Assembly: GCF_000024005.1 (NCBI RefSeq)
Contig: NC_013132.1
Location: forward strand, 186,001-250,000
Length of the DNA stretch: 64,000 nucleotides
Source of the DNA: Chitinophaga pinensis DSM 2588
GTDB lineage: Bacteria; Bacteroidota; Bacteroidia; Chitinophagales; Chitinophagaceae
Reading direction: 5' to 3'
Shown here: in pieces, positions 25,058-40,398 of the stretch
How the letters are laid out: every line of letters begins with the position of its first letter
Numbering within the stretch: the first letter of the stretch is position 1
Translations under genes and position numbers: made by a program
Notes under the pieces: model-generated
What the model saw: the letters and a program-made list of their open reading frames with translations, nothing else
What the model was told of the DNA's origin: nothing
Databases searched by the model: none

Positions 25058-25129
25058 TCTAAAATCTATAGCGCATAAAAAAGCCTGGCTTTATAAAGCC
25101 AGGCTTTTTTATGCGCTATAGATTTTAGA
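25058..25129. terminator. 72-nt perfect palindrome with a terminator core
   Basis: Positions 25058-25093 and 25094-25129 are exact reverse complements: 36-bp arms with no spacer. The inner part (AAAAAAGCCTGGCTTTA and its mirror) is a classical bidirectional terminator. The outer arms extend through the stop codon and last sense codon of the Oar-like TonB receptor gene. It is far longer than the other terminators here. Confidence 0.9.
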
Positions 25130-28100
25130 ATGAATACCTCAATCCCAGCTGCATCTGGTGTCTGCTTCCAAAGAAATCTCTGGAATAAGGCGTACCAGGG
25201 TTAGACCACTCGTATACTGGGTAAGCAGAAGGAGAGCCTGGAGTTTTTTGTGACAAACCTACACTCGCAGTTGAGTTGAAGGTGTTTGGAGAGAAGTATT
25301 GGATACCCCAGTCCTTGTTCAACAGGTTTGTCAGGTTGATGATATCATAAGTCAGTGTCAGCGTGTGAGTGGATTTACCGGCTTTGAAGTTGAAATCCTG
25401 TGAGAAACGGAAGTCAGCCTGTGTATTCCATGGCGTACGACCACCGTTACGTTCTGTGAACTGACCTTTACGGCTGCTCAGGTATTTATCGCCTTCTACA
25501 TAAGCAAAGAACGCGTCAGCCATTGCCTGGTTAGCAGGAGTGAAGAACTGACGTGCTTCTGCCTGATCTTTTGGAATGTACGCCAGACTAACCTGCTGAG
25601 GTGTACCCTGGATAGTTGCATTCACGAAACCATAAGAGAATGGCAGACCGGAAGAAGTGTTGAAGAACAGCGCGAAGTTAGACACAAAACGACCCTTGTG
25701 ATTCCAGTCCATTTTGTAGTTAGCGGTTGCTACGATACGGTGACGGATGTCAAAGTTAGAGTAAGCCAGGTGTGGATCGTTAGGATTCAGTGCCTGGTTC
25801 AGCTGCCAGTTAGACTCCATAGAGTTACGGATACCGTTCGTGATATCTTTAGACTGACCATATGTATATGCTAAGCTGAAGTTAAAGCCGAAGTCAAATG
25901 CTTTGCTTGCCTGACCAGTAACCGCATAACGGTAACCTTTCTTTGTATTAGACAACAGGTAAGCGTTGGTGAATTTAGAGTTGATCTTGGTACCACTGTA
26001 GATAGGCTGTTGCTTATCGGTATCGTAGATATTGTAGGTAGGATTATCTACCAGGTTCACCTGCTGGAACTTCAGATCGTAGATAGTCTTGGTATAGATA
26101 CCTTCGATAGTAAATCTCCATCTGTTCTTAGTAGAGTAGTCCAGTGCTGCACTACTTCTCCACATCTGTGGCATCTTGAAGTTGTTGTCGATCAGATCCA
26201 CCTGCGTAGCACCAGATGCATCGTGTACATCAACACCCTGTGCGGTTACAAACTGCGCTGCACCCTGGTCAGATACTTTTACAGGATTGCTGTTTGCTGC
26301 AGGAGGAGCAGCTGCGGTAAAGCGTTTGTCATATGCACCATAGGTAGTACCGTTGTTGTAGTAAGCATAGCCTAACCAAGCGAATGGAATACGACCGGTA
26401 AACAGACCTGTTCCACCACGCAGTACCAGACTCTGGTCGCCTTTGATGTCGTAGTTAAAGCCCAGACGGGGGGAGATCTGAATATTGTTCAGGTATTTGT
26501 TGTTGATATCTTTTGGCTTCGTGTAGCTGTAAGTAGTACCGAAGTTAGGATCTACCGGAGCATTCGTTGTCTTGTCACTCAGGCTCTGTCTGTTAGGCAG
26601 ATTTGTGTAGTCAAAACGGAGACCTGGAGTCAGTTTGAAACGATCAGTTATCTGGATCTCATCCTGTCCGTACAGGCTATACATACCAATTTTGAACTGA
26701 GCTGGTGGATTCGCCATGATATAATCACGGGAATTATTAGCATAGTTAAAGTTAGCACGTACCCGGCTTGGTGCGTCATTCAGGAAGTCGTTGATGCTTT
26801 CATAGTCAACACGACCATTCCAGGAGTTCACGAAACCATAAGTGATGTTATACAGCTCATTATGCGTACCGATAGTGATGTTGTGTTTACCCTTGAAGAT
26901 ATTCACATTATCAGTGAATTCAAAAGTCTTCTGCTTCATGTTGAAGATAGACGCTTCACGGTCTGTACCCAGGAAAATAGTACCACCTCTTGATTTGATC
27001 TGAATCTGTGCCAGGGAAGGATCAGAAGTCGGGTCACGGTAGTCATGAACGGTAGAGTAACCAACGATCAAACTGTTAGAAACGGAGTTATTAAAACGGC
27101 TTTTCACCTCCAGTACGGTAGAAGACTGATTGTTTACCTGTTTGAAGTCGATACCGCTGAAACGGAAGTTCTGCTGGTCGCGCTCCAGGTTGGTAGCTTC
27201 TGAAGTAATGGTATTGTTACGCAGTGACAACTGGTGTTTATCATTGATATTCCAGTCTAAGCGGTTAAAGTACTTATTGGAATTTGAATAAATAGAAGTG
27301 TTGCCATAAGTTCCCGGATCATACTTACCAGATTTGCTCACATCCAGATCCAGCATGTGCTGACGGATCTGTTCAGCTTCCTGTACAGTGATCAGCGGCA
27401 TATCAGCTGAACCAGCACCCAGGATCACCGGATCACGACGACGTGCGATCTCTTCGTTGGTGAAGAAGAATAATTTATCCTTGATAATAGGGAAACCTAA
27501 TCTGATACCGGTCTGATAGTCATGGAAACTGGAAGGCAGTTTGGAACCGTCACCGGCATTGTTTTTACCGATCAGGTCAGCATTACGGCCAAAACCGTAT
27601 ACCGAACCATGGAATTCGTTCGTACCGCTACGGGTTACCGCGTTGATACTACCACCCAGAAAGTTACCGATTTTCACATCATATGGAGCCAGGTATACCT
27701 GGATATCCTGGATCGCATCCAGTGATACCGGGTTGGAACGGGTACTGCTACCAGGCTGTCCGGAGCTATTGCTCTGACCACCCATGGAAGGGCTGAAGCC
27801 GATCGCATCGTTATTGATCGCGCCATCCAATGTAACGTTATTGTAACGGTAGTTGGTACCCAGGAAAGAGTTGTTATTACTCTGTGGAGTAGCACGGGTA
27901 AAGTCCTGGAAACTACGGTTGATCGAAGGCAGGGTTTTCAACTGGTTCTGACCAATTTTGAAAGAACCGCCTTTCTGTGTGGTGTTGCCTTTTACTACTA
28001 CTTCGCTCAGTGCAGTAGAAGCATCGGCCAACTGGAAATTGAAAGTAGAGCTACCCAGGGAAAGATTAATTCCGGGAGCTTCTTCAGTTTTAAAACCTAT

Positions 28101-28358
28101 ATAGGAAACGGTGATTGTGTATGGACCACCAGGGTTAACGTTGTTGATGAGGTAACGACCGTCTGCCTGTGTCTGCGCACCGTAACGGGTACCTGTAGAA
28201 GTGTTTACTGCCAGTATTGTAACCCCTGGCAGGGCCTCTCCTTTACTGCTCACTATTTTCCCGGTGATCTGGGAAGTGGTGATCTGAGCTCTTAAGCCGG
28301 CAGCCGACAGTACAAGGATACTCACAAATAACAATAATGAATAGAATTGCTTATTCAC
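25125..28358 (-). CDS. Oar-like TonB-dependent outer-membrane receptor
   Basis: A 1077-aa receptor. Signal peptide about 1-24 (ends LRAQ). A carboxypeptidase-regulatory-like domain follows (about 31-112, GKIVSSKGEALPGVTILAV). The plug domain contains LDGAINNDAIGFSP and GGSINAVTRSGTNEFHGS, the latter typical of the Oar subfamily. The barrel runs to the C-terminal strand ending LGLRYSF. Cargo is unknown; Oar-type receptors have been linked to siderophore, peptide or protein handling. The upstream region carries an 11-bp repeat array next to TACGTTTG, shared with other genes at 35-40 kb, which suggests co-regulation (inference). The gene end lies in a 72-nt palindrome. Confidence 0.92.
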   Translation of the reverse strand: MNKQFYSLLLFVSILVLSAAGLRAQITTSQITGKIVSSKGEALPGVTILAVNTSTGTRYGAQTQADGRYLINNVNPGGPYTITVSYIGFKTEEAPGINLSLGSSTFNFQLADASTALSEVVVKGNTTQKGGSFKIGQNQLKTLPSINRSFQDFTRATPQSNNNSFLGTNYRYNNVTLDGAINNDAIGFSPSMGGQSNSSGQPGSSTRSNPVSLDAIQDIQVYLAPYDVKIGNFLGGSINAVTRSGTNEFHGSVYGFGRNADLIGKNNAGDGSKLPSSFHDYQTGIRLGFPIIKDKLFFFTNEEIARRRDPVILGAGSADMPLITVQEAEQIRQHMLDLDVSKSGKYDPGTYGNTSIYSNSNKYFNRLDWNINDKHQLSLRNNTITSEATNLERDQQNFRFSGIDFKQVNNQSSTVLEVKSRFNNSVSNSLIVGYSTVHDYRDPTSDPSLAQIQIKSRGGTIFLGTDREASIFNMKQKTFEFTDNVNIFKGKHNITIGTHNELYNITYGFVNSWNGRVDYESINDFLNDAPSRVRANFNYANNSRDYIMANPPAQFKIGMYSLYGQDEIQITDRFKLTPGLRFDYTNLPNRQSLSDKTTNAPVDPNFGTTYSYTKPKDINNKYLNNIQISPRLGFNYDIKGDQSLVLRGGTGLFTGRIPFAWLGYAYYNNGTTYGAYDKRFTAAAPPAANSNPVKVSDQGAAQFVTAQGVDVHDASGATQVDLIDNNFKMPQMWRSSAALDYSTKNRWRFTIEGIYTKTIYDLKFQQVNLVDNPTYNIYDTDKQQPIYSGTKINSKFTNAYLLSNTKKGYRYAVTGQASKAFDFGFNFSLAYTYGQSKDITNGIRNSMESNWQLNQALNPNDPHLAYSNFDIRHRIVATANYKMDWNHKGRFVSNFALFFNTSSGLPFSYGFVNATIQGTPQQVSLAYIPKDQAEARQFFTPANQAMADAFFAYVEGDKYLSSRKGQFTERNGGRTPWNTQADFRFSQDFNFKAGKSTHTLTLTYDIINLTNLLNKDWGIQYFSPNTFNSTASVGLSQKTPGSPSAYPVYEWSNPGTPYSRDFFGSRHQMQLGLRYSF

Positions 28359-28376
28359 GTCTTTTCAATTTTGACG

Positions 28377-28431
28377 CAAACGTATCCCTGCTACATTACG
28401 CATATGTTAACACAATATTAAATTAATGTTA
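28377..28431 (-). promoter_or_regulatory. PHO-box-like array and -7 element of the Oar-like receptor
   Basis: On the plus strand, tetramers ATTA, GTTA, ATTA, GTTA start at 28395, 28406, 28417 and 28428, exactly 11 bp apart. The minus-strand -7 element TACGTTTG lies at 28377-28384, with 10 bp between it and the first tetramer. In gene sense the units read TTAACA, TTAATA, TTAACA, GTAATG. The spacing is the same as at the 34.99, 37.88 and 38.52 kb sites. Confidence 0.7.
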
Positions 28432-28762
28432 ACACACAGACGCACGTATCACACTCAATAACTTATATGTTAAGTTTTGAGCTATGTGAGCAAATTATTC
28501 TGTTCGGCTTGTTTAATTCCTTACTTATTCCCAGACATAGACATAGGTAAAATGACAGGAAAAGCAGATAGAAAATTATTCATACAAGCTTGTTATAGGC
28601 AACAATAAGGGTATTGATAGTAATAGGTTTCCTTATATGTTCGCATGTTTCCAAAAATATATAGCGTGTGTTAAGGGAGTGTTACCCTAATATTAACTTT
28701 GGTCATTTCTAATGTTAAGTTTTTGAAGCATGTAACTTTCGCAGCAAGATGACCACGGCTCA
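28432..28762. other. Intergenic region, AT-rich
   Basis: About 330 nt between the array of the receptor gene and the end of the Lrp-type regulator. No credible ORF. TATGTTAAG-like strings recur near 28466 and 28711, but without regular spacing. No terminator is obvious after the regulator. Confidence 0.4.
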
Positions 28763-29281
28763 TCAGAGACCTTCCTCCCTTTTACCATGCTTTGATGTCT
28801 TGATAATCTGCCCTGTAGTCAATGACAAGGCAGTCTCATGTTTGGGCTCCGCTATTACAAAAAGACTGTTAATCCTGCTGACGGCATCCAGCCGTGAGAG
28901 TTTGTTGGTAATAAACAGTTCGTACTCTTCCAGATCCGCAACCATCACCTTCAGCAGATAATCATAAGGACCATTGATTTTATAACATTCCATCACCTCC
29001 GGAAAGGTATTGACCTTCTCCTCAAACAGTTGGAAGATATCATGCCCATGCTCTTTAAGTGTAATATTTGCAAAAGCTGTTACGTGTTTGCCCATGCGTT
29101 TTTTATCCAGGATGGCTACATAGCCTTTGATATAGCCCTCACATTCAAGCCGTTTCACACGTTCAAATATGGAGGTTACTGATTTTCCCAGTCTGGCGGC
29201 TATCTCCTTGTTGGTAAGACGCGCATCTTCCTGTAACAGGTCCAGTATGTGCAGGTCGGTTTCATCTAACGTGAAATGCAT
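28763..29281 (-). CDS. Lrp/AsnC family transcriptional regulator
   Basis: A 172-aa regulator. The N-terminal AsnC-type winged helix (about 4-62) includes LDETDLHILDLLQEDARLTN and the recognition helix region SVTSIFERVKRLECEG. The C-terminal RAM ligand-binding domain (about 68-150) includes VMECYKINGPYDYLLKV. An unusually long basic tail follows. It is divergent from ppsA, with about 180 nt between starts. Lrp-type regulators often control divergent neighbours in response to amino acids, so control of ppsA is a reasonable inference. Confidence 0.92.
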   Translation of the reverse strand: MHFTLDETDLHILDLLQEDARLTNKEIAARLGKSVTSIFERVKRLECEGYIKGYVAILDKKRMGKHVTAFANITLKEHGHDIFQLFEEKVNTFPEVMECYKINGPYDYLLKVMVADLEEYELFITNKLSRLDAVSRINSLFVIAEPKHETALSLTTGQIIKTSKHGKREEGL

Positions 29282-29458
29282 CGGGGAATATTTTACTAAA
29301 ATTACGCAGATTCGACCGCTGTACCTGAAAAAAAATCGTGATTAACAACTCATTATAGATTTGTTTTCGGCTTCTTCGCGTATCTGTATTTCTGGTTACA
29401 ATAATGATGACCTTTATCCCGACGCCAACTTTGTCATACACCAAAACTAATCTCTTCA

Positions 29459-31897
29459 ATGGAAACACGAATTGTAATTCCTCTTCAGGCATTATGCCTG
29501 GAGGATATCCCTATCGTAGGTGGTAAGTGCGCCTCACTTGGAGAAATGATTGCCAACCTCACCAAAGCAGGTATTAACATACCCTCCGGCTTCGCTATCA
29601 CCACAACAGCCTATTATCAGTTTCTGCGTCAAAGTGGCCTGGAAGATTATATCCAGGAACAGATCGCTGGTATTGACTTTACCTCGCTGGTGACCCTGAG
29701 ACGAGCGGGACAACGCATCCGCCAGGCAATCAGTAATACCAAATTTCCGCATGAACTCAGTACAGAGATCATTAGTGCCTATATGGAACTCTCCCGGGAA
29801 TATGGTCAGGACATTACAGACGTAGCCGTACGTTCTTCCGCTACCGCAGAAGACCTCCCGGATGCATCCTTTGCCGGACAGCAGGAAACTTATCTGAATG
29901 TCAGAGGACCAGCCGCATTGATCGATGCCGTACGCAACTGCTTCGCATCTCTCTTCACTGACAGAGCCATCAGCTACCGACAAAATTTTGGATATGACCA
30001 CTTCAGTATAGGCTTATCCGTTTGTATACAGAAGATGGTCCGCTCAGATCTCGGTGCTGCCGGCGTCGCCTTTTCCCTGGATACAGAATCAGGTTTCAAA
30101 GATGTGGTTGTCATCAACGCCGCTTTCGGACTGGGAGAAATGGTCGTACAGGGAGCTGTATCTCCTGATGAATTTATCGTATTCAAACCTGCGCTCAACG
30201 GGCATCACGCGCCCATCATTGAAAAACGCCTGGGCGTGAAAGACAAAATGATGGTGTATGGTGAAAGTAATGACCAACGCACCAAGATCATCCCGCTTGA
30301 CAAAGCCAATCAGCAAAGATTCTCATTACGCGATAAACAGATTTTGCAACTTTCCGAATGGGTATGCAGAATAGAAGAATACTATTCGCAGCTCAAAGGA
30401 AAATGGTGTCCGATGGATATAGAATGGGCCTTAGATGGGCTCAGCAACGAATTATTCATCGTACAGGCCCGCCCCGAAACCATTCACTCACAGAAAGAAC
30501 ATCATACGATCACCTCCTATAGTATGGAACAAAAAGCGACGCCCTTATTAAAAGGGATTGCAGTAGGAGATAAGATCGCGTCCGGAAAAGTGAATATCCT
30601 TTTCTCACTGGACAAACGTATTACCGAAGGTTCGGAATTCAAACCCGGCGATGTACTCGTTACAGATATGACAGATCCCGATTGGGAACCTATCATGAAA
30701 ATGGCAGCCGCTATTGTGACCAATAAAGGAGGACGTACCTGTCATGCTGCTATTGTAGCAAGAGAAATGGGGATTCCCGCCATCGTAGGCTGCGGCAACG
30801 CTACTGAGTTACTCAGTTCCGGTCAGGATATTACCATCAGCTGTGCAGAAGGTGATGAAGGCATCATTTATGAAGGAATCGTGCCTTTCAAAGAAACTTC
30901 GCTTGATCTGCGGGAACTGCCTGAGATCAATACATCGCTGATGCTGAATGTCGCCTCTCCTTCAATGGCATTTCAATATTCACATCTTCCCAACAAGGGC
31001 GTCGGACTAGCCAGGGAAGAATTCATCATTAACAACTACATTAAAATACACCCGCTTGCCTTATTGCATCATAAAACATTGAACGATGCGGCACTAAGCG
31101 CAGAGATCATACAATTGATCAGAGGATATGAAAATGAAGAAGCCTACTTTGTACAAAAGCTAGCCTATGGCATTGCGAAGATTGCCGCTGCATTTCATCC
31201 AGGTAAAGTGATTGTACGTTTCTCCGATTTCAAGAGCAACGAATACTACAATCTGCTGGGAGGAAAGTACTTCGAACCAGCAGAAGAAAATCCTATGATC
31301 GGTTGGAGAGGTGCATCCAGGTATTATTCTGAGAAATATAGCGCAGCCTTCGCGCTTGAATGCAAAGCCATCAAAAAGGTAAGAGAGGAAATGGGACTGG
31401 AGAATGTAGTCGTCATGATCCCTTTCTGCCGAACAGTCGACGAACTGCTGAAGGTACTAAGTACCATGAAACAGTATGGTCTTGAAAGAGGGGAAAACGG
31501 TCTGGAAGTATACCTGATGGCCGAGATACCTTCTAATATCATTATGGCAGAAGAATTCGCCGCGCATATTGATGGTTTTTCCATCGGGTCCAATGACCTT
31601 ACACAACTGACATTAGGACTCGACCGCGACTCTGCACTGATTGCGAATCTCTATAATGAGCGCAATCCGGCTGTATTAAGAATGATCAGTATGCTGATCA
31701 GTACCGCTAAAAAGCAACATGTGAAAGTAGGTATCTGCGGACAAGGCCCTTCTGATTTTCCCGACTTCACAAAGTTTCTCGTTGAACAGGGAATTGATAG
31801 TATATCAGTCACACCAGATGCGTTGACGAAAACAGTGAAGGCCATCCATGAAGCAGAAGCAATGCTTAGCTTACATACACCGGCACACATTTTATAA
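29459..31897 (+). CDS. ppsA: Phosphoenolpyruvate synthase
   Basis: An 812-aa enzyme that converts pyruvate and ATP to phosphoenolpyruvate, AMP and phosphate in gluconeogenesis. The N-terminal ATP-binding domain contains VGGKCASLGEM and VRSSATAEDLPDASFAGQQ. The phosphohistidine domain has H429 in GGRTCHAAIVARE. The C-terminal TIM barrel has the catalytic C760 in GICGQGPSD and the substrate region SIGSNDLTQLTLGLDRD. Length is normal. It is divergent from an Lrp-type regulator and is followed by a strong terminator. Confidence 0.95.
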   Translation: METRIVIPLQALCLEDIPIVGGKCASLGEMIANLTKAGINIPSGFAITTTAYYQFLRQSGLEDYIQEQIAGIDFTSLVTLRRAGQRIRQAISNTKFPHELSTEIISAYMELSREYGQDITDVAVRSSATAEDLPDASFAGQQETYLNVRGPAALIDAVRNCFASLFTDRAISYRQNFGYDHFSIGLSVCIQKMVRSDLGAAGVAFSLDTESGFKDVVVINAAFGLGEMVVQGAVSPDEFIVFKPALNGHHAPIIEKRLGVKDKMMVYGESNDQRTKIIPLDKANQQRFSLRDKQILQLSEWVCRIEEYYSQLKGKWCPMDIEWALDGLSNELFIVQARPETIHSQKEHHTITSYSMEQKATPLLKGIAVGDKIASGKVNILFSLDKRITEGSEFKPGDVLVTDMTDPDWEPIMKMAAAIVTNKGGRTCHAAIVAREMGIPAIVGCGNATELLSSGQDITISCAEGDEGIIYEGIVPFKETSLDLRELPEINTSLMLNVASPSMAFQYSHLPNKGVGLAREEFIINNYIKIHPLALLHHKTLNDAALSAEIIQLIRGYENEEAYFVQKLAYGIAKIAAAFHPGKVIVRFSDFKSNEYYNLLGGKYFEPAEENPMIGWRGASRYYSEKYSAAFALECKAIKKVREEMGLENVVVMIPFCRTVDELLKVLSTMKQYGLERGENGLEVYLMAEIPSNIIMAEEFAAHIDGFSIGSNDLTQLTLGLDRDSALIANLYNERNPAVLRMISMLISTAKKQHVKVGICGQGPSDFPDFTKFLVEQGIDSISVTPDALTKTVKAIHEAEAMLSLHTPAHIL

Positions 31898-31913
31898 TAT
31901 ATAGCCCACAATA

Positions 31914-31955
31914 AAACAGAAAGTCGTCCGCCAAAGGCGGAACGGCTTTCTGTTT
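31914..31955. terminator. Terminator between ppsA and the metalloprotease
   Basis: An extended stem of about 19 bp (arm AAACAGAAAGTCG... with one bulge) spans 31914-31955 with a 3-nt loop. It lies between convergent genes and has A/T runs on both flanks, so it could act in both directions. Confidence 0.75.
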
Positions 31956-31974
31956 GCATATGTCAATCAAGATA

Positions 31975-33120
31975 TTATAAAATCTGGATCAGTTTTACAA
32001 TCTGAGTACCATTAGGACAGGTAGTCGTCCTTACCCTGTGGAACACATTGTATGTACCTTTTGGCAGATTGGAAGGGAAATGGAAAGATATGTCAGAATC
32101 GTTCCATGTAGCCACGCTTACATTAGCGCTGTTTTTGATATCCCACTCTACAGCAATCAGTTCAGACAGTTTTACTCTGTAAGAAGGATACAGCGTACCA
32201 ATGTTGTTATAGGTAGCCTGTGTACCAGATGCCGGCAGGTTGATGTGAGGATAAAGGTTACATGCAGAACCTGGGTATAATGCTCTGATTACTTCAGCAT
32301 CTTTACCGCTTTCATTAAACAGTATAAATCCGTCATTAGTAGAAGGTACGAAGTTCTTACGCATGATTGAACCGGCAGCATCAGCTTCGGTAAAAGCAGG
32401 CAGATCGACGTTACCGATCACCTGACCATTGTCAGCAACACCTTCACCTTGTGTATTCCAGTCGCTGTGACGCAGTCCCATCATGTGACCGATTTCGTGT
32501 GCGATCAGCCAGGCGATCTGGTCAGCGCTAAGATTCTGTGAATCGATCAGGGTTTTGTTCAGGATGATCTGATAACCGTTCACACCATTGAAGTTAGAAA
32601 ATCCTGGATAATCTCCCATTGCATACACACCTGAAGGCAGGGTACCATAAACGATCTGGAAACTGTATGCCGGATCAGTTGCATAGTAGGTAGCATAAAA
32701 GCTCAGGGCAGAATGTGCACTGTTCCATTCCTGGATCGCTTTTACAGCGCCGTTATAATAACGGGATTCTCCAAGGACAGTTGACGGTAAAAACACTTTG
32801 ATCTGTGTACCGAGTGTCCAGAGATTAGTAGCGGTTGCGTACTTTGCATTTGCATCCTTTCTGACGTTGTATTCATCCAGAAATTTTCTTGAAATAGCAC
32901 GATCTCCTTCTACTACAAAAATTGAATCATAATTTTTTACGCCGGATGTATCAAATCCGAGATCATGGATCTTCTGCAGATACTTTTCATCTACACGCGC
33001 TTGAATTTCATGGTTCACCAGGACTTGGCTGCGGGTTTGTGCATCCTCTTTTTTACAGGCAAATAAAAAAGCAGACATCGCAGTAATGGTAACTGCTAAA
33101 GAGGCAATACGGGTTCTCAT
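31975..33120 (-). CDS. M57-type HEIGH metalloprotease lipoprotein
   Basis: A 381-aa secreted lipoprotein; the signal peptide ends LFAC (C22). The pro-region or N-domain (about 30-100) precedes a metzincin-like zinc site HEIGHMMGLRHSD, with H208, E209, H212, H218 and D220. This is the signature of the dual-action HEIGH peptidases (PF12388). The family Met-turn is probably the GSIMRKNF stretch. A C-terminal beta domain of about 80 residues follows. Expected to act at the cell surface or outside. Transcribed alone, leftward. Confidence 0.88.
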   Translation of the reverse strand: MRTRIASLAVTITAMSAFLFACKKEDAQTRSQVLVNHEIQARVDEKYLQKIHDLGFDTSGVKNYDSIFVVEGDRAISRKFLDEYNVRKDANAKYATATNLWTLGTQIKVFLPSTVLGESRYYNGAVKAIQEWNSAHSALSFYATYYATDPAYSFQIVYGTLPSGVYAMGDYPGFSNFNGVNGYQIILNKTLIDSQNLSADQIAWLIAHEIGHMMGLRHSDWNTQGEGVADNGQVIGNVDLPAFTEADAAGSIMRKNFVPSTNDGFILFNESGKDAEVIRALYPGSACNLYPHINLPASGTQATYNNIGTLYPSYRVKLSELIAVEWDIKNSANVSVATWNDSDISFHFPSNLPKGTYNVFHRVRTTTCPNGTQIVKLIQIL

Positions 33121-33496
33121 GTGATGTATTTGATTTAATTAACAAATTTTCCGGACAATAGACTACCAGCACATTTGTCTATACACAAATGCAACAGGTA
33201 TATTTTTTATAAAATAGGCTCTAATGCGTAATACAAATACGATTGCCTTTTGGCAGACACGTATAGTCAATGCAGATAGAAGACGGATTTTGCATCATCA
33301 AAAGACCTGATGCGGGCCGGGTAACATGTCTCAATACGGGCTTCATATGGTCGGGTATACAACTTAAAACTGACAGTGCAATAATAGGAATATCTTCTAT
33401 TAAAAAAGAACAAACTATGTTATATAAATATTAACAAACAATAAGGGACAGACTATAAAGTCTGTCCCTCTGACAAGCAGTTATATTATGTAACAA
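33121..33496. other. Intergenic region upstream of the HEIGH protease
   Basis: About 375 nt, AT-rich. It holds the terminator of the preceding lipoprotein gene (33444-33469). No ORF stands out. I looked for the 11-bp repeat array seen upstream of the neighbouring genes and did not find one, nor a clear CAAAnnTA element. Confidence 0.5.
33444..33469 (-). terminator. Hairpin after the beta-helix lipoprotein gene
   Basis: A perfect 11-bp stem AGGGACAGACT (33444-33454 with 33459-33469) has a 4-nt loop, about 28 nt past the minus-strand stop. A weak T-rich tract follows. Confidence 0.7.
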
Positions 33497-34969
33497 TTAC
33501 TCTTTTACATATACTGTTTCGTTTGGAGTCCAGTTAATCCATGCCTGATTAGTCCATGGGTTAGCAGGATCTACCGCACCAACGTAGTTAACCTTATCGA
33601 AGAAAGCATCGAATTCAGCAGAGAAGACTGCAGTTTTAGCAGTTTTCAGCGCAAATTCAGTGTTGGTAGCTTTATAAGAAGCAGCAGAAGGAACCTTAGC
33701 AAAAACATCAGCCAGTGCAGTGTAAGTAGTGTTAGTGTTCGCTTCAGCCATGATCAGGTTTTTGATATCGTTACCAGTCAGGTAGCTTGCATCTTTAGTA
33801 TCAGCATCAAATAATACCGGACCGATTGCAGTAGCACCAGCACCACGCTGAGTAGAGATAGGGCTGATACCGGAAGCCTGGAAGATAGAGTTAGTGATTT
33901 TGGAAGTACCATCGCTCAGATAATCCTGTGCAACTTTACTTTCAACATCAGTAGCAACTGGCATACCAGAGAATACAGAGTTTGCTACAGTGAAATTAGC
34001 ACCTCTTCTCCATCTTGCACCAGAGTAGAAATAATCACCAGCACCGGTTGCAGCACCAGGACCTACCAGGGTCAGGTTAGAAATGATCGGGTGAGTGAAA
34101 GGAGTAGAAGTGTTTGCACCGTTCAGGTTATCAACTTCCAGACCGTTAGACAGGCTCACAACGTCAGAAGCTTTAGGATCCAGCAGGGCAACGAGGAACT
34201 GCAGTTTACCTTTAAAGCCGCTATCCATATCGAAGTTATCATCCAGTGTACCGTAAGCTACCAGATATTTACAGTTTACGCTACCACCAAACCACTCGTA
34301 AGCGTCATCGCCGGAGTAGCTAACCTGGATGTGATCAACTGTAGTACCAGAACCAACTGCGTAGAAAGTAACACCGTTTACTTCGCTATCCGCAGTACTT
34401 GCCAGTGCGATACCACCGAACTCGATTCTTACATATTGCAGAACACCGGAGTTATCAGCATCATCACCTTGTGTGCTGGCTGCATTACCATAGTTCAGGT
34501 TAACAGTTGCGTCTACGTTAGCCAGACCTTCAACAACTCTCTTGTCAACTGGTCTGTTGGTAGAACCTTTACCTAACAGGATGATACCACCCCAGTCACC
34601 TTTAGCACGTGCACCTGGAGCTTTAGCAGATGTGAATACGATTGGAGCATCAGCAGTACCTTTAGCGATCAGCTTAGCACCTGCTGTGATGATCAGGGTA
34701 CCACCGGAGGTAGGACTTGTGTTTCCACCCAGAATAGTAGTACCTGGTTCTATAGTCAGAGTAGCGTTGTTTGTAACGTAAACATACTCTTTCATCAGAT
34801 AGAAAGTATCCTTTGAAAGCTTTCTGTCGGCAGAGATTTTACCTTTCAATTCAACAGTCGCCTTCGGTTGTTCAGGAGTTGGTTCAACTTTGTCATCATC
34901 TTTACAAGCTACGAAAGTTGTAGCCAGCGCAGCAGCCATAAGCAGAACTGATGTCTTGTTTTTTCTCAT
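33497..34969 (-). CDS. Right-handed beta-helix-like lipoprotein, partner of a TonB receptor
   Basis: A 490-aa protein from the ATG at 34969; an in-frame TTG lies 24 nt upstream. The lipobox FVAC gives C22, followed by acidic DDDK as in surface-exposed Bacteroidota lipoproteins. The body has repeated short strands (LTIEPGTTILGG, LIITAGAKLIAKG, GDWGGIILLGKG, VQYVRIEFGG-like) that suggest a parallel beta-helix. No catalytic residues are recognised. It follows a TonB receptor gene by 96 nt, and such pairs usually make a receptor plus surface substrate-binding protein. It also has its own 11-bp repeat array. Ligand unknown. Confidence 0.75.
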   Translation of the reverse strand: MRKNKTSVLLMAAALATTFVACKDDDKVEPTPEQPKATVELKGKISADRKLSKDTFYLMKEYVYVTNNATLTIEPGTTILGGNTSPTSGGTLIITAGAKLIAKGTADAPIVFTSAKAPGARAKGDWGGIILLGKGSTNRPVDKRVVEGLANVDATVNLNYGNAASTQGDDADNSGVLQYVRIEFGGIALASTADSEVNGVTFYAVGSGTTVDHIQVSYSGDDAYEWFGGSVNCKYLVAYGTLDDNFDMDSGFKGKLQFLVALLDPKASDVVSLSNGLEVDNLNGANTSTPFTHPIISNLTLVGPGAATGAGDYFYSGARWRRGANFTVANSVFSGMPVATDVESKVAQDYLSDGTSKITNSIFQASGISPISTQRGAGATAIGPVLFDADTKDASYLTGNDIKNLIMAEANTNTTYTALADVFAKVPSAASYKATNTEFALKTAKTAVFSAEFDAFFDKVNYVGAVDPANPWTNQAWINWTPNETVYVKE

Positions 34970-34990
34970 AGAATTAAATTGAATTTTTGG

Positions 34991-35045
34991 CAAAAAAATG
35001 AATTAAATGTTAGCTGATTATTAGCACTATGTTAACAAATGGTCA
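34991..35045 (-). promoter_or_regulatory. PHO-box-like array upstream of the lipoprotein gene
   Basis: Plus-strand tetramers GTTA, ATTA, GTTA, GTCA start at 35009, 35020, 35031 and 35042, all 11 bp apart. The -7-like element is the degenerate TTTTTTTG on the minus strand (34991-34998), again with exactly 10 bp to the first tetramer. The site lies between the TonB receptor stop and the lipoprotein start, so the second gene can be expressed independently. Confidence 0.55.
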
Positions 35046-35065
35046 ACTTATTACCTGACCTTTTA

Positions 35066-37840
35066 TTATCTGAAAGTATAGGAAAAGCTTAAAGAGAAAT
35101 TTGTTCCGTATTTGTATTGATAGAACACATAATCTGTCCCTTTCTTATAAGATCTTTTATCGTCTTTGTTCTGATACAACAGATACGGATTGTTCAGGAT
35201 GTCTGAAATGTTCAGCTTGATTTCTCCGTTCTTTTTGAACAGACGTTTGCTGAGCTGCAGATCAAGCAGGTTTCTGGAATTCTCGAACACGTCCAGTTTG
35301 TTGCTGCTGTCGTCACCCACAATGTTGATCCTTGAACCGATTCTGTTGTACAGTACGGTTACACCCATGTCGTTGTTAGGATTGTTAATCTGCAAACCTG
35401 CATTGATCAGGTATGGAGACTGACCCGGCATACTTCTCGTTTCACCGTTGATGTTACGTACAGTCTGGTTTGGATTCTTGATTGAAGAGTGGATGTATGC
35501 ACCGTTAGCGAATATGAAGGAATTCTTACCCCATCTGCCCATTACAAACTCCAGGTTCTTTCTTGCTTCCAATTCAATTCCGAATGTATTTGCATCATTC
35601 AGGTTGATGTATGTACGGTCGTTGTTATCGATGCTATACCATGTTTCAGAGATAGGATCTTTAAACTTCTTGTAGAATGCAGCTACTGCGAATGTTTCGC
35701 CGGCAGCAGGATATAATTCGTAACGTAAATCAATGTTGGTGATACGGGTCTGTTTCAGATTTGGATTACCAAATACGGTTGCCGCATTCAGGAAATCAAA
35801 GAAGCTGAACGTTGCGAGCTCTCTGAATTCTGGTCTCGCAACAGTATTAGAGTAAGACAATCTCAGGTTAGTCTTGTCTGTCAGATTATATACAAAGTTC
35901 GCTGAAGGCAGGAAGCTGTTGAAAGTAGTATCTGTTGTATAGCTGGCAACAGTCGATACTGGTTTCAGCTGCTGGTTGTAGCGCTCGTAACGCAGCCCCC
36001 AGATTACTCTCAGTTTCTTTGTGATAAAATTATCAAACATGAAATATCCTGCACTCAGATTAGAAGTAGCATTGTATTCACCGGTGTTATCCTTATCATC
36101 TCTCAGATAGATACCATTGCTTCCCAGGTTCTCATTAGAGAAGAGTTCATATGGAGATAAAGCCAGCTTCTCATAAGGGAAATCAGGAGAAGAGTGGTAA
36201 GAGAATGGTCTGTAGATAGAATAACGTTTTCTGTATTGTTCAAACACACCCAGTTTCAGTGAATGGTCTTTGCTCTTCTGAAGCAGTGGGAACTGATAAG
36301 ACAACCCACCGTTGTAGATGTTATCTTTTACAGTAAAGAAACCACGGGAAGAACCACCATTTACCGGCTGATCAATAATAGCGTGACTGTCTGTATAGTT
36401 AGAGATACGCATGTCCGGATCATCTCTCTTAGTTTTAGAATAGTTCAGTAACCATTCTACTTTTCCACCTTTCAGACTATGCTCACCCTGTAATGTAGAT
36501 GACAGGATAGAACGCTGTGTCAGCGTCAGCATCATGGATTGTGTCAGATAGTGGAAAGGAGGATTGGGATCCGCAGCTACATCACGTAACAGCGTGTTAT
36601 TGTCCAGTATACGGTTGTACAGGTTCTTGAAAGATATTTTGTTATTCTTGAAGCTGTAAGCCAGATTCGCTACAGCGCCCAGTGCACTTGAATATCTGTT
36701 AGAAGTATCAACGTTATGACGTCTGTACACTTTGTTATCGATGTCGAAATCGTTACGCTCTGCGAACTGATTACGCTCAGTGTGGTTATGTGTTACAGAG
36801 AAAATGTAACCCAGTTTACGCTCACCAAAGTATTTAGTGTTACCACCGGTGATCTGAATGCTGGTACCTGGCGCTACGGTTGTATTGGATACTCTCCAGT
36901 TATTTTTGAAAGACCTGTTGATATCATCTTTTGCTTTACCAGCCAGGTTATTGAATGCAGCAGAAGAAGGAACAGCAGAAGGCAGTTTTCTTGATCCGTC
37001 ATCAAATGTCCAGTAGTCGGTAGAACCTCTCATACCGGTCTTTGCATCTTTGAATGTAGATAGGCCATTCACAGAAACACCAGCAGAAGCGGTGATAAAC
37101 TTTTCATCCGGGAAGTCTTTGGTATTTACCTGGATAAGACCACCTGCGAAATCGCCTGGTTTATCAGGAGTAGATGTTTTATTGATCACCATGTTATCGA
37201 TCAGACCAGAAGGAATGATATCGAAAGAGAATGATTTTCTGTCAGGCTCTGTACTTGGTAACAGTACGTTATTCATGGTGGCGTTGTTATAACGGTCAGT
37301 CAGACCACGTACAACAACAAATTTGTTATCCTGGATACTGGCGCCGCTTACACGTTTCAGTACTTCGCCGGTATTTTTATCAGGGGAAGATCTTATCTGT
37401 TCAGCAGAAATACCGCTGGATACAGCGACGTTATTTTTCTGAGCAGTATATAAAGCGTTGATAGTTTCCTGTTTGAATGAACCTCTGATCACAACTTCTT
37501 GTAATTCTTTGGATTTAGGTTCATCCATAATGATGGGGAGCTGGGTGGCAACACCGGACTTCACGACTACGTCGCTTACGGCTTTGGTTTGATAACCCAT
37601 ATACTTGAACTCCAGCACGTAAGTACCTGGAGCTACGTTCAGTGTGTAACGACCTTCAACATCGGTAACCGCTCCTGTAGAGGTACCCTGTACGATAACG
37701 GTTACGCCAATGAGGGCTTCACCTGTTTTCTGGTCAGTTACTTTACCGGTGATTTTGCCATTATCCATGGCAAACGCGGAGAGGAAGGTACTCAAAAGGA
37801 GGCACACACATAACAGTGCAGACGCAAGAGAATGTTTCAC
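35066..37840 (-). CDS. TonB-dependent outer-membrane receptor
   Basis: A 924-aa receptor. Signal peptide about 1-24. A carboxypeptidase-like domain follows (about 28-112, GKVTDQKTGEALIGVTVIVQ). The plug domain contains VSSGISAEQIRSSPDKNTGE, VVRGLTDRYNNATMNNVLLP and GGLIQVNTKDFP. The barrel ends in a terminal aromatic strand (SLSFSYTFR). The plug type (RGLTDRYN...) is seen in receptors paired with a beta-helix-like lipoprotein. Cargo unknown. An 11-bp array with a near-perfect promoter precedes it. With PiT, PhoU-like and phosphoesterase genes within 3 kb, uptake of a phosphorus compound is my inference. Confidence 0.92.
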   Translation of the reverse strand: MKHSLASALLCVCLLLSTFLSAFAMDNGKITGKVTDQKTGEALIGVTVIVQGTSTGAVTDVEGRYTLNVAPGTYVLEFKYMGYQTKAVSDVVVKSGVATQLPIIMDEPKSKELQEVVIRGSFKQETINALYTAQKNNVAVSSGISAEQIRSSPDKNTGEVLKRVSGASIQDNKFVVVRGLTDRYNNATMNNVLLPSTEPDRKSFSFDIIPSGLIDNMVINKTSTPDKPGDFAGGLIQVNTKDFPDEKFITASAGVSVNGLSTFKDAKTGMRGSTDYWTFDDGSRKLPSAVPSSAAFNNLAGKAKDDINRSFKNNWRVSNTTVAPGTSIQITGGNTKYFGERKLGYIFSVTHNHTERNQFAERNDFDIDNKVYRRHNVDTSNRYSSALGAVANLAYSFKNNKISFKNLYNRILDNNTLLRDVAADPNPPFHYLTQSMMLTLTQRSILSSTLQGEHSLKGGKVEWLLNYSKTKRDDPDMRISNYTDSHAIIDQPVNGGSSRGFFTVKDNIYNGGLSYQFPLLQKSKDHSLKLGVFEQYRKRYSIYRPFSYHSSPDFPYEKLALSPYELFSNENLGSNGIYLRDDKDNTGEYNATSNLSAGYFMFDNFITKKLRVIWGLRYERYNQQLKPVSTVASYTTDTTFNSFLPSANFVYNLTDKTNLRLSYSNTVARPEFRELATFSFFDFLNAATVFGNPNLKQTRITNIDLRYELYPAAGETFAVAAFYKKFKDPISETWYSIDNNDRTYINLNDANTFGIELEARKNLEFVMGRWGKNSFIFANGAYIHSSIKNPNQTVRNINGETRSMPGQSPYLINAGLQINNPNNDMGVTVLYNRIGSRINIVGDDSSNKLDVFENSRNLLDLQLSKRLFKKNGEIKLNISDILNNPYLLYQNKDDKRSYKKGTDYVFYQYKYGTNFSLSFSYTFR

Positions 37841-37879
37841 GATATAAGCTGATTCAGTGACTTGATTGAATTACTGATG

Positions 37880-37934
37880 CAAAACTATTATCGCCGTGTT
37901 ACCGCAGTGTTACAGCAAGGTTACGAGAATGTTA
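37880..37934 (-). promoter_or_regulatory. PHO-box-like array and -7 element of the TonB receptor
   Basis: This is the clearest array. GTTA starts at 37898, 37909, 37920 and 37931 on the plus strand, exactly 11 bp apart. The minus-strand -7 element TAGTTTTG is at 37880-37887, with 10 bp between. In gene sense the hexamers are TTAACA, GTAACC, GTAACA, GTAACA. A half-match also sits at 37887. The ATG is 40 nt downstream of the -7 element. Confidence 0.75.
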
Positions 37935-38044
37935 ATTGTTAAGGAATAATTAAAAAATAGTTAACACATTCGGGAGAGTGTAGGCGCATAGGATAAATAA
38001 TAAGGTATAATCAGGATAGGGATATGGTAATGCTAAAACATTGG

Positions 38045-38455
38045 TCAGCAGGCTATTTGCTGCGGTCCCTGATGATTATTATTCAATAATCTTTCCAGTG
38101 TGATGTCCAGTTGTGCGCTATACTCTGAGTTGAATTTCATACTATCGTTCAGGGTAGAGATCAGCTGAAACAGGTGCATACTCTTATTGGTAAACGGCTT
38201 GTTATCCTTATTACAAAGTTCCAGGGTAAAATTGAACTTATCTTCCAGTTCTTCTTCGAACTCACGCAGACTCAATGTTTCATCAATAGGGAATTCGATC
38301 AGCATCTGCTCAAGGAAACCGGCTTCCTGTAAAGTGTCAAATGCGTTAGCCGGGGAGTTACGCATATACACGGCTATATTACAGGCGAGCAGTCGTTGAA
38401 ACTGCATCTGTAATAGGGAGACTGTCATTAAAGGATGTAACTTCAATACTTTCAT
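38045..38455 (-). CDS. Unknown protein (136 aa) under a PHO-box-like promoter
   Basis: A 136-aa soluble protein with no signal peptide or membrane segment. It is predicted mostly helical, with an acidic stretch (LREFEEELEDKF) and a Gln/Asn-rich C-terminus ending in Cys. I do not recognise a family. It lies between the TonB receptor and the metallophosphoesterase on the same strand. It is preceded by the same array-plus-promoter arrangement as the receptor genes, which makes it a likely member of that regulon. Confidence 0.65.
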   Translation of the reverse strand: MKVLKLHPLMTVSLLQMQFQRLLACNIAVYMRNSPANAFDTLQEAGFLEQMLIEFPIDETLSLREFEEELEDKFNFTLELCNKDNKPFTNKSMHLFQLISTLNDSMKFNSEYSAQLDITLERLLNNNHQGPQQIAC

Positions 38456-38518
38456 CTTACTATATGTGTTAGCATTACCAGTCGGTCACTTTTACGTTTG
38501 GACTATTAAAGAATAATG

Positions 38519-38573
38519 CAAACTTAGTGGGCCTGTATTAAGTGAATATTAAGCAGTTGTTATTATATCATAA
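38519..38573 (-). promoter_or_regulatory. PHO-box-like array upstream of the 136-aa gene
   Basis: Plus-strand ATTA, ATTA, GTTA start at 38537, 38548 and 38559 with 11-bp spacing; weaker ATAA and TTAA matches continue the register at 38570 and 38581. The minus-strand -7 element TAAGTTTG is at 38519-38526, exactly 10 bp from the first tetramer. Confidence 0.6.
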
Positions 38574-38606
38574 ATAAATGTTAAATAACAACTACTTATA
38601 TATGTG

Positions 38607-39443
38607 TTATTGTTGCGGGAAGCTGATGACCTTGGAAATGTCTTCCCAGGGCATGGCTGAGCCATCTTCTTCCTCTTCTGGTAATACAACACGCGCTTTT
38701 GATACGGGATACTGATAGAGACTCCATTGACCACTGGTATATTCCAGCGAGGTGAGACTTTCCACCCAGTCGCCGGAATTAAGATAGGTCACGTTCTTAC
38801 CATTATGCTGCATTTCTTTGATAATCGGCTGGTGTATATGCCCGCAGCATACCACATCAAATCCCTTATCAACAGCAATTTCAGCTACCACCTGCTCAAA
38901 ATCTGAAATAAACTTAACAGCTTGTTTCACACCATGTTTCACCTTTTTGGAAAAGCTCATCTTTTCCTTCCCCATTCGCTCTAAAATATTATTAACCAAC
39001 CTGTTGATAATAATCAGCAGATCATACCCCTTTCCACCCAGTTTAGCCAGCCATTTTGAGTTTTTCATGGTCACGTCATACACGTCTCCATGGAAAAACC
39101 AGTGTCTTTTCCCGTCTACTTCCAGGATCAGCTTGTTATCGATGGTCAGATTACCCAGTCCGAAACCGGCAAATTTGCGGAGTGCTTCGTCATGATTTCC
39201 TGTCAGATAGTATACTTCAGTCCCCTTTCCGGTCATTTTCAGAATGCGACGGATCACTTTGGTATGGGCTTTAGGGAAATAACGCTTGCTGAACTGCCAG
39301 ATATCGATGATATCCCCATTCAGTACCAATATCTTAGGATCGATACTGTCGAGGTACTGGACTAATTCTTTCGCATGACAGCCGTAGATGCCAAGATGAA
39401 CATCAGATATAACTACAATATCGAGAGGGCGCTTATCAGACAT
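38607..39443 (-). CDS. Metallophosphoesterase, UDP-2,3-diacylglucosamine diphosphatase-like
   Basis: A 278-aa calcineurin-type phosphoesterase. The five metal-binding blocks are visible: D14-V-H16 in SDVHLG, NGDIID near 41-46, GNHD near 82, FFHGDVYD near 116, and CCGHIHQP near 204. This order and the C-terminal NSGDWVES match the LpxH-like family, which in lipid A synthesis cleaves UDP-2,3-diacylglucosamine. No other lpx gene is near. With PhoU-PiT divergently upstream and a PHO-box-like array between, a role in phosphate scavenging is an alternative. Confidence 0.85.
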   Translation of the reverse strand: MSDKRPLDIVVISDVHLGIYGCHAKELVQYLDSIDPKILVLNGDIIDIWQFSKRYFPKAHTKVIRRILKMTGKGTEVYYLTGNHDEALRKFAGFGLGNLTIDNKLILEVDGKRHWFFHGDVYDVTMKNSKWLAKLGGKGYDLLIIINRLVNNILERMGKEKMSFSKKVKHGVKQAVKFISDFEQVVAEIAVDKGFDVVCCGHIHQPIIKEMQHNGKNVTYLNSGDWVESLTSLEYTSGQWSLYQYPVSKARVVLPEEEEDGSAMPWEDISKVISFPQQ

Positions 39444-39569
39444 TTTTTTTAAGAATTGAACCGAAGAAACCGGGCAGTTGTTAGGTTTAGTTTATAATAT
39501 AGTATAGTTCGCTTAAAAGCGCTGCTATTGCGGGTTCACCCCGCATTCAGTCAGTCTTTTTTTACAATA

Positions 39570-39624
39570 CAAAGAAAAAATTGCTATATTACTTTTATAT
39601 TAATCCAGTGTTAAGGAATCATTA
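39570..39624 (-). promoter_or_regulatory. PHO-box-like array in the divergent phosphoesterase / PhoU-PiT region
   Basis: Plus-strand ATTA, ATTA, GTTA, ATTA start at 39588, 39599, 39610 and 39621 with 11-bp spacing. CAAAGAAA at 39570-39577 (minus sense TTTCTTTG, imperfect) lies 10 bp before the first, which orients the array toward the phosphoesterase. On the plus strand the same units contain TTAAGG direct repeats and lie about 39 bp upstream of TATTTTTG, so the site may serve both directions. Confidence 0.55.
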
Positions 39625-39662
39625 AGGATAATTTTTTCTTGGCGGTATTGCCCGCGGAAAGC

Positions 39663-39670
39663 TATTTTTG
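39663..39670 (+). promoter_or_regulatory. Promoter -7 element of the PhoU-PiT operon (TATTTTTG)
   Basis: A perfect TAnnTTTG match 23 nt before the start of the PhoU-like gene, giving a short leader. The 11-bp array ends 38 bp upstream. Confidence 0.6.
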
Positions 39671-39693
39671 CGCCAAATTTTCAAACAAAGAGT

Positions 39694-40347
39694 ATGGGAG
39701 GCTTCAATTCCTTTGTAAAGTTATTTATACCGAAAGACAGGGTTTTCTATTCATTATTTGAAGACGTTGCGGCTAATCTGGTAGAAATGGGTAAAGTGCT
39801 CGTAGAGCTGGTATCCTCCACAGATATGGCTGTACGTAAAGATAAAACCCATCTTATTGAGCGACTGGAGCACAAAAACGACGATTTTACTCATCGTATT
39901 TTTGTTGAACTGGGGCAGAACTTCATTACTCCTTTTGACCGCGAAGATATTCACCATCTGGCAGCAACGCTGGACGATGTGGCTGACTACATTCATGGAT
40001 CTGCAAAAAGGCTGGACCTGTATAAAGTACACGAAATCAATGATAGTGTACGCAAACTGGCAGACCTGATCTACCAGGGTACCCTGGAATTGCACAAAGC
40101 AATCCCGGAACTGCGTACTATGTCCAACATGCGTAATATCACAGATGCCTGCGTAAGGATCAACAGTCTGGAGAACCACGCAGATGATATCTACGACATG
40201 GCAATCGCTGATCTATTCGAAAAAGAATCTAATAATGCAGGAGAACTGCTGAAAATGCGTGAACTGTATCAGGCATTGGAAATCGCAACCGACAAATGTG
40301 AGGATTGCGCCAATGTGATAGAGTCGATCATAATAAAATATGCATAA
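39694..40347 (+). CDS. DUF47 family protein (PhoU-like), partner of PiT
   Basis: A 217-aa all-helical cytosolic protein of the DUF47/TIGR00153 family, related to PhoU. Recognisable stretches are MGGFNSFVKLFIPKD, ENHADDIYD and a C-terminal helix CEDCANVIESIIIKYA. Such proteins are encoded with PiT transporters and are thought to regulate phosphate uptake, possibly through a bound metal cluster. The PiT gene begins 51 nt downstream on the same strand. Confidence 0.92.
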   Translation: MGGFNSFVKLFIPKDRVFYSLFEDVAANLVEMGKVLVELVSSTDMAVRKDKTHLIERLEHKNDDFTHRIFVELGQNFITPFDREDIHHLAATLDDVADYIHGSAKRLDLYKVHEINDSVRKLADLIYQGTLELHKAIPELRTMSNMRNITDACVRINSLENHADDIYDMAIADLFEKESNNAGELLKMRELYQALEIATDKCEDCANVIESIIIKYA

Positions 40348-40398
40348 TCAATTGGTTATACATATTCAGCCAGCTTCTTTAATGCAAATTTCATTCTA

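Follow-up and report, generated by a model that had tools for sequence, protein, structure and literature searches.

Tandem 11-bp promoter arrays as putative PHO boxes and a candidate small RNA in a gene cluster of Chitinophaga pinensis

Which regulator acts on a group of minus-strand genes that stand behind the same tandem 11-bp promoter array? We addressed this question in a 64,000-nucleotide (nt) stretch of the Chitinophaga pinensis DSM 2588 genome (contig NC_013132.1, positions 186,001 to 250,000; hereafter, the window, to whose first letter the coordinates below refer). The genes encode two TonB-type outer-membrane proteins (TonB1 and TonB2), a lipoprotein, a 136-amino-acid (aa) protein and a calcineurin-like phosphoesterase. 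An earlier note, made from the sequence alone, had described five arrays with exactly 10 bp between the first tetramer and a -7 element, and had proposed that one OmpR/PhoB-family regulator, with phosphate as its signal, controls these genes and a neighboring PhoU-PiT region. All five arrays proved exact in position, period and gap; two more had been missed, as had a candidate small RNA (Table 1). The most probable reading, to which we give a probability of about 0.86, is that the arrays are PHO boxes of a regulon for PhoB.

Geometry and conservation of the arrays

In each of the five arrays first described, tetramers recur every 11 bp: ATTA/GTTA/ATTA/GTTA from 28395, GTTA/ATTA/GTTA/GTCA from 35009, GTTA four times from 37898, ATTA/ATTA/GTTA from 38537, and ATTA/ATTA/GTTA/ATTA from 39588. 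The array from 37898 has an extra ATTA one period promoter-ward, which overlaps the -7 element by one base, and a further partial array lies upstream of it (~37939-37964). The gap between the first tetramer and the -7 octamer is exactly 10 bp in 5/5 arrays. A scan for three units combined with the -7 element, with the reversed pattern as control, gave seven matches in the window at ≤2 mismatches and no further one at 3 (the 24687 match covers 24687-24730, and its fourth unit reaches 24741). When 30 copies of the window made by a first-order Markov model were scanned in this way, none contained a match, even at 3 mismatches. TAAY triples, counted over both strands of the whole window, numbered 14 at period 11 and 9 at period 7, whereas periods 8-10 and 12-16 each gave 0-2. 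The controls for period and spacing used 364 kb (the window and the cluster loci of 15 relatives), a set that had itself been gathered with the period-11 pattern: the full pattern gave 67 matches at period 11, none at 8, 9, 10, 12 or 13, and one at 14, and a 5-base unit motif gave 67 matches at a unit-to--7 spacing of 9 and at most 15 at each other spacing from 5 to 13.

Based on 61 sites from the loci of 16 relatives, positions 2-6 of the unit are strongly conserved, positions 1, 7 and 8 weakly, and positions 9-11 are nearly free. This profile fits the scheme of a PHO box, described as two 11-nt direct-repeat units with seven well and four less conserved bases that are bound in tandem, head to tail (PMC4415409). 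The fixed placement of the arrays beside the core promoter is also that of PHO boxes. The box of Escherichia coli PhoB and Bacillus subtilis PhoP, as described there, is alike in its 11-nt 7+4 units and tandem head-to-tail binding, but has two units of the CTGTCAT type, whereas the window has three or four units of (T/G)TAA(C/T)AT and a Bacteroidota TAnnTTTG -7 element (PMC4415409).

The earlier note had proposed a whole-genome scan to tell the pattern from random frequency. In the 9,127,347-bp genome, all seven matches with ≤2 mismatches lie inside 15 kb of the window (24687-39613), all on the minus strand; at ≤3 mismatches the pattern gave 17 matches versus 8 for the reversed one. The corresponding totals were 154 versus 6 in 24 same-genus genomes, and 12 versus 2 in 15 same-order genomes. 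Gene by gene (20 relatives' loci and the window; ≤2 mismatches, within ~320 bp of the gene), arrays stand ahead of the phosphoesterase in 20/20 loci, the 136-aa gene in 19/20, TonB2 in 17/18, TonB1 in all eight loci that hold it, and the lipoprotein gene in 5/18; these loci were found through the pattern itself, so the fractions are not an unbiased sample. Where the lipoprotein gene lacks its own array, it may be co-transcribed with TonB2.

An origin in AT-rich promoter composition or chance can practically be discounted. Both the units and the -7 elements are AT-rich, and the control count of 8 at 3 mismatches shows that the reversed pattern is also found genome-wide, but the empty Markov copies, the 0-1 matches at other periods and the conservation of the positions across the genus refute this explanation.

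PhoB as the probable regulator

A PhoB/PhoR-type two-component system is encoded in the genome. The PhoB orthologue (C1:1465781-1466461), adjoined by a kinase and an OprP-like porin, shares 55% identity with Flavobacterium PhoB, compared with ≤38% for the seven other OmpR-type regulators compared (eight of the ten PhoB-like loci of the genome entered this comparison). Its TIGR02154 score of 219.7 is under the cut-off of 296.2, which only 2/14 control genomes passed. Orthologues are present in 77/79 genomes of the genus.

Gene linkage in other genomes speaks for the PHO-box reading. In 6/24 same-genus relatives (G001, G003, G006, G012, G015 and G021), no more than ~12 kb separates the PhoB orthologue from the arrays; this count holds for the genomes as assembled, since draft contigs may hide more. 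The order in all six is TonB2 - lipoprotein - OprP-like porin - kinase - PhoB, with PhoB just beyond the stretch examined in G021, so that the phoB-kinase-porin genes follow the array genes. The Flavobacterium-type set comprised five genomes searched, out of 80 loci (one is titled [Flexibacter]; porin, TonB and glycosyltransferase families were Pfam-checked in one genome). Their locus reads glycosyltransferase - OprP - PhoR - PhoB with a divergent TonB receptor - lipoprotein pair. At ≤2 mismatches, arrays precede the phoBR-linked TonB receptor in 5/5 and OprP in 4/5 of them; at ≤3 mismatches, the lipoprotein gene has one in 5/5. A motif from another member of the phylum points the same way: the bases most conserved in the DNA affinity purification sequencing motif of Riemerella anatipestifer PhoP are TTTAACA (PMC9603813), and the GTTAACA units of the window come close to this. 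That regulator differs in its 583 peaks, for which its authors likened it to ArcA, and the passages on it give neither array number nor promoter spacing (PMC9603813). Apart from this motif, no Bacteroidota PHO-box sequence was found among the literature matches listed. A single OmpR/PhoB-family regulator, as first proposed, is thus the best reading on the strength of this linkage and motif.

Phosphate is likewise the best reading of the signal, on stronger grounds than the nearness of PiT and PhoU-like genes. The boxes precede phosphate-acquisition genes: in position and similarity, TonB2 and the lipoprotein correspond to published induced genes, and the phosphoesterase shares PF12850 with the induced PlcP. 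On phosphate depletion in Flavobacterium johnsoniae, the reported log2 changes are 8.02 (~250-fold) for the TonB receptor Fjoh_0545, 9.91 for the lipoprotein counterpart Fjoh_0546, 8.59 for PlcP, and 3.06 for PhoB; in its phosphate-utilization clusters, sigma factors reach 7.94 and 8.88 and FecR-like proteins 9.88 and 9.79 (PMC8115612). As reported, that response is similar in its PhoBR-linked TonB receptor, pectin-lyase-fold lipoprotein, PlcP-type phosphoesterase and sigma-FecR-SusCD clusters (PMC8115612). C. pinensis differs in its unlinked phoBR and in having TonB1 and the 136-aa gene in addition. The terms 'motif' and 'small RNA' are absent from the main text of the F. johnsoniae paper. 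Marine plcP clusters resemble the window in the putative PhoB sites predicted ahead of them, and Flavobacteria are among the PlcP carriers, in passages that give no box sequence or promoter spacing (PMC4796936). Bacteroides fragilis PhoB binds the pstC promoter in electrophoretic mobility shift assays, and the passages do not state the box (PMC3547664).

According to this reading, the arrays would be Bacteroidota-type PHO boxes of three or four tandem 11-bp units, (T/G)TAA(C/T)AT+4, with the last 7-base unit ending 8 bp ahead of the TAnnTTTG -7 element. Phosphorylated PhoB would bind them in a head-to-tail row and bring in RNA polymerase, thereby standing in for a -33 contact. Phosphate starvation would then switch on a ~75-nt small RNA and five protein genes, namely those for TonB1, TonB2, the lipoprotein, the 136-aa protein and the phosphoesterase.

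Several observations weigh against PhoB and phosphate. The phoBR genes lie 1.24 Mb from the arrays, i.e., unlinked, and the array at their promoter is partial and differently spaced; because of this spacing, autoregulation of PhoB by an array-type box was rejected. The pst operon has no full array at ≤4 mismatches in C. pinensis, G013 or G014. Beyond the cluster, the 10 remaining matches in the C. pinensis genome all have 3 mismatches and barely exceed the control of 8. The Flavobacterium-type genomes gave 19 matches in total versus 10 for the reversed pattern; therefore, only their concentration at phoBR (10/19 inside the ~7-kb locus) supports the motif there. The F. johnsoniae comparison consists of published expression rows. 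In those rows, OprP is not induced (log2 -1.3, p 0.25), even though OprP has arrays in 4/5 Flavobacterium-type genomes, and PhoR is hardly induced (log2 0.76, p 0.056; PMC8115612). Lastly, the 11-bp/-7 geometry is also found at efflux operons beside a different OmpR-type system, so geometry alone cannot name PhoB.

These efflux operons bear on the alternative that another OmpR/PhoB-family regulator, for envelope or metal stress, binds the arrays and that the PhoB linkage in relatives is coincidental. We examined 60 out-of-cluster matches in relatives, taken from those listed and leaving aside a tandem repeat (G012:C10); downstream genes were grouped by BLAST clustering, with Pfam run on two extracytoplasmic function (ECF) sigma operons (C. 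pinensis and L103) and one efflux gene. For one match (L111), no downstream open reading frame (ORF) was obtained, and for some others the ORF is short and doubtful. Efflux-type genes follow 8/60 matches (PF02321 in the one tested), and 7/8 of these matches stand directly downstream of another OmpR-type regulator-kinase pair, an arrangement also seen in two Flavobacterium-type genomes. The alternative can also draw on the 139 regulator-type matches in the C. pinensis genome, many to the receiver part only, and on the absence of linked phoBR in this genome and in 18/24 relatives as assembled. Its difficulty is that the efflux-locus units read TCTAAY/TTTTAAY, that phoBR follows the array set in 6/24 relatives and flanks it in 5/5 Flavobacterium-type genomes, and that the gene set agrees with published phosphate-induced genes; we regard it as improbable. 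The window arrays do not fit those of the efflux-type regulators, because no response regulator was found among ten proteins tested from 25125-41403 and the unit differs from TCTAAY. Arrays of 11-bp units at a fixed -7 distance seem to be a trait of this regulator family in the phylum, with the unit sequence separating its members.

Of the genes that the earlier note had named for testing with a genome scan (phosphatases, pst, pit and further TonB genes), pst has no full array. What C. pinensis and G013 have upstream of pstS, as judged by eye, is a box of two units that are in register, and its -7 element is degenerate. PstC is present in the C. pinensis genome (over the cut-off in 5/30 genomes); PhoU (PF01895) had no match there and is present in 13/14 control genomes. 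ECF sigma genes follow 11/60 out-of-cluster matches, with a 301-355-aa gene next in 11/11 (FecR by Pfam in L103) and then a TonB1/TonB2-like ORF in 8/11. In C. pinensis, two 3-mismatch arrays (L314:6690-6869; G000:C1:6696689-6696868) precede an ECF sigma-FecR-SusC-SusD operon that resembles the F. johnsoniae phosphate-utilization clusters. A further match, outside the 60 (G005:C2:881234), precedes a ~1050-aa ORF and then a 542-aa ORF.

Four side observations concern these outlying loci. The gene after pstB in the C. pinensis pst operon (L311:5556-9488) encodes a cupin protein. In C. pinensis (3 mismatches) and G013 (2 mismatches), the pattern matches at equivalent places of a DedA/VTT-domain gene (L012:1501-1544, L085), and likewise for a gene whose similarity to imelysin is weak and below the cut-off (L011:1501-1544, L086:2522-2565). 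In seven genomes (L063, L070, L074, L083, L095, L104, L109), a 138-154-aa secreted-looking protein starts 51-84 bp past an array; the one tested had no Pfam match.

A candidate small RNA behind its own array

The array at 24687 leads directly into a nearly invariant stretch that ends in a perfect intrinsic terminator; the 5' end of the RNA was placed from the -7 position. This small RNA was found at ≥90% identity in 21/79 genomes of the genus, with an array directly before it in 21/21 (16 with ≤2 mismatches and five with 4). A covariance model matched 60/79 genomes at E ≤0.01, of which 51 were inspected, the remainder being weak matches. The stand-alone form occurs in 21/51 genomes; in 15 of these 21, the first gene met upstream, within 1.5 kb, is TonB1. 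The core lies just past the lipoprotein stop codon and ends in the terminator in 22/51 genomes, follows the 136-aa gene in four (with an array 81 nt ahead in G078), and is represented in another four (L353, L356, L357, L360) by a core-like RNA (TTTTCTCATAAGCAGTTT and a terminator) that lies outside the cluster, behind an ORF of 228-233 aa. The core (TTTTCATAARCTGT and its neighbors) is mostly unpaired, and the terminator varies in sequence and keeps its pairing (partly by eye); conservation is higher in the unpaired core than in the hairpin. The fold has a z of -3.16. The small RNA is a real conserved unit, and its position behind a PHO-type array makes it look like a phosphate-starvation small RNA. 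A protein-coding reading of the core was rejected, as the frame is broken in L160 and L167 (by eye). The 28652 array was rejected as a second small RNA source after inspection of six genomes by eye, with no conserved product or terminator up to Array 1.

A conserved single-stranded 5' seed followed by a Rho-independent terminator is the build of the FopS/GibS small RNAs of Bacteroides thetaiotaomicron, of which one FopS member is described as derived from a 3' untranslated region (UTR) and pairing occurs at a SusC mRNA start codon (PMC11697453). The window RNA shares this build of seed and terminator. FopS is reported as a 14-member family with ordinary sigma promoters (PMC11697453), whereas the window RNA is present in a single strong copy that follows a PHO-type array, and its pairing is predicted. 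No Rfam family reached the gathering cut-off in 24590-24740 (the best E was 0.029), nor was there a FopS/GibS family match, and the presence of a FopS model in that Rfam copy was not checked. E. coli sgrS, from an unrelated phylum, is listed with PhoB under phosphate/carbon cross-talk (PMC4415409) and is set beside the window RNA by that listing alone. A literature search by title and abstract start found no Chitinophaga small RNA under phosphate.

The core is complementary to CAGCTTATGAAA, and we searched for targets on this basis. The 15-mer reverse complement of the core (25 genomes) was rejected as a target: of six places examined, five are antisense in a ~755-765-aa ORF and one is inside a 1043-aa ORF. 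With a 12-mer (30 genomes), C. pinensis had 14 matches versus 4 for the control, among matches listed. Besides the RNA itself these are 13; of 12 inspected, one falls at a start codon, that of a SusC-like gene followed by a SusD-like gene, and the thirteenth is one of the antisense places. The same SusC-like gene carries the 12-mer at its start in C. pinensis, G007, G010, G013 and G047, all with the stand-alone form (the G047 ORF could also begin 57 nt earlier), with duplex energies of -29.5, -29.5, -24.1, -31.3 and -23.5 kcal/mol, respectively. Among 19 further 12-mer places, L432 (G011) is another SusC-like start, with 30% identity, and three places (L418, L429 and L431) fall at the starts of different genes. 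The SusC start is only a lead, because 2/772 unrelated starts also reach -29.5 kcal/mol; a Gumbel fit expects ~29 such starts in 7000, and the best of 300 shuffled RNAs reached -29.6 kcal/mol. As a small-RNA target, the SusC start codon is therefore a weakly supported candidate.

We infer a regulatory role for the RNA, and the following scheme is tentative, more doubtful than probable. PHO boxes would drive a dedicated small RNA whose core and terminator moved as a unit between a stand-alone PHO-box promoter and the lipoprotein 3' UTR; in starvation it might block translation of a SusC-type transporter at its start codon, swapping carbon-type for phosphate-scavenging outer-membrane receptors. 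A realistic competitor, though not one we would back, is that the conserved RNA is a mere 3'-UTR or terminator element acting in transcript ending, stability or processing. The copies right behind the lipoprotein gene, complete with terminator, suit such an element, as does the lack of significance of the best target by duplex energy, whereas the stand-alone copies directly behind their own array in 21 genomes do not. Nor would a terminator need a fixed unpaired core, and here that core outlasts a hairpin that changes in sequence.

Gene content of the cluster and its meaning

Table 1 Features of the cluster in window coordinates.
Feature	Coordinates	Strand	Description
Candidate small RNA	24608..24682	-	~75 nt; core 24648-24671; terminator 24608-24635
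Small-RNA array	24687..24741	-	Four units; -7 element TAATTTTA; directly ahead of candidate small RNA; absent from the earlier note
TonB1	25125..28358	-	1077 aa; outer-membrane beta-barrel protein (PF25183) with carboxypeptidase-regulatory domain
Array 1	28377..28431	-	Four 11-bp units, TTAACAT-type; -7 element TACGTTTG; 18 bp ahead of the TonB1 GTG start
Second TonB1-side array	28652..28695	-	Three units, 0 mismatches; -7 element TATTTTTG; absent from the earlier note
Lipoprotein, probable beta-helix	33497..34969	-	490 aa; Fjoh_0546 counterpart by position and partial similarity
Array 2	34991..35045	-	Four units; -7 element TTTTTTTG; ahead of the lipoprotein gene
TonB2	35066..37840	-	924-aa TonB-dependent receptor (PF00593, PF14905, PF13715, PF07715); Fjoh_0545 counterpart
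Array 3	37880..37934	-	Four units; -7 element TAGTTTTG; ahead of TonB2
136-aa protein	38045..38455	-	Function unknown
Array 4	38519..38573	-	Three units, fourth degenerate; -7 element TAAGTTTG; ahead of the 136-aa gene
Calcineurin-like phosphoesterase	38607..39443	-	PF00149, PF12850; LpxH/PlcP-like
Array 5	39570..39624	-	Four units; -7 element TTTCTTTG; ahead of the phosphoesterase; the divergent PhoU-like/PiT operon lies on its other side
PhoU-like (DUF47) and PiT phosphate transporter	39694..41403	+	PF01865, PF01384; divergent operon

The regulon first proposed is supported for both TonB genes, the lipoprotein, the 136-aa gene and the phosphoesterase, each of which has an array ahead of it; its extension to the PhoU-like/PiT operon is not, as the pattern scan of the window found no array in that direction and Array 5 faces the phosphoesterase. 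Array 5 might still act also, or mainly, on this divergent operon, e.g., by repressing low-affinity uptake in starvation. The site lies between both operons, and its block TTAATATAAAAGTAATATAGC keeps an AAAA spacer and an AGC end in 17/18 of the relatives' sites printed (two vary elsewhere in the block), unlike the other arrays; this block may overlap the divergent PiT promoter. We consider such a role unlikely, as no clear divergent -33 element was seen by eye and the -7 spacing suits the phosphoesterase side in 20/20 loci.

The phosphoesterase, a possible PlcP, matches LpxH models below the cut-off. Named close homologues of the lipoprotein and the 136-aa protein are mostly from Chitinophaga; for the latter, all named organisms among 120 of 145 homologues listed belong to this genus. 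Tailspikes and pectate lyases are beta-helix folds. The AlphaFold2 model of the lipoprotein is mostly beta (mean predicted local distance difference test score, pLDDT, 84.2), and its Foldseek matches are mainly tailspikes, pectate lyases and the like, among the 50 listed. A beta-helix is likely, and no more than likely because these matches have E of at least 0.0034 and a query template-modeling score of ≤0.36. A very long near-perfect hairpin 3' of TonB1 (25050-25134), which gives sub-threshold Rfam matches, is probably the TonB1 terminator.

Phosphate-induced TonB/SusCD systems in Bacteroidota have already been published. With a box that can be searched for and stands at a fixed distance from the promoter, the phosphate regulon of this large phylum of soil- and plant-associated bacteria would become readable from sequence. 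The small RNA, if true, would be a starvation-controlled post-transcriptional arm of this response, and the alternation of one core between stand-alone and 3'-UTR forms would offer a natural experiment on small-RNA origin.

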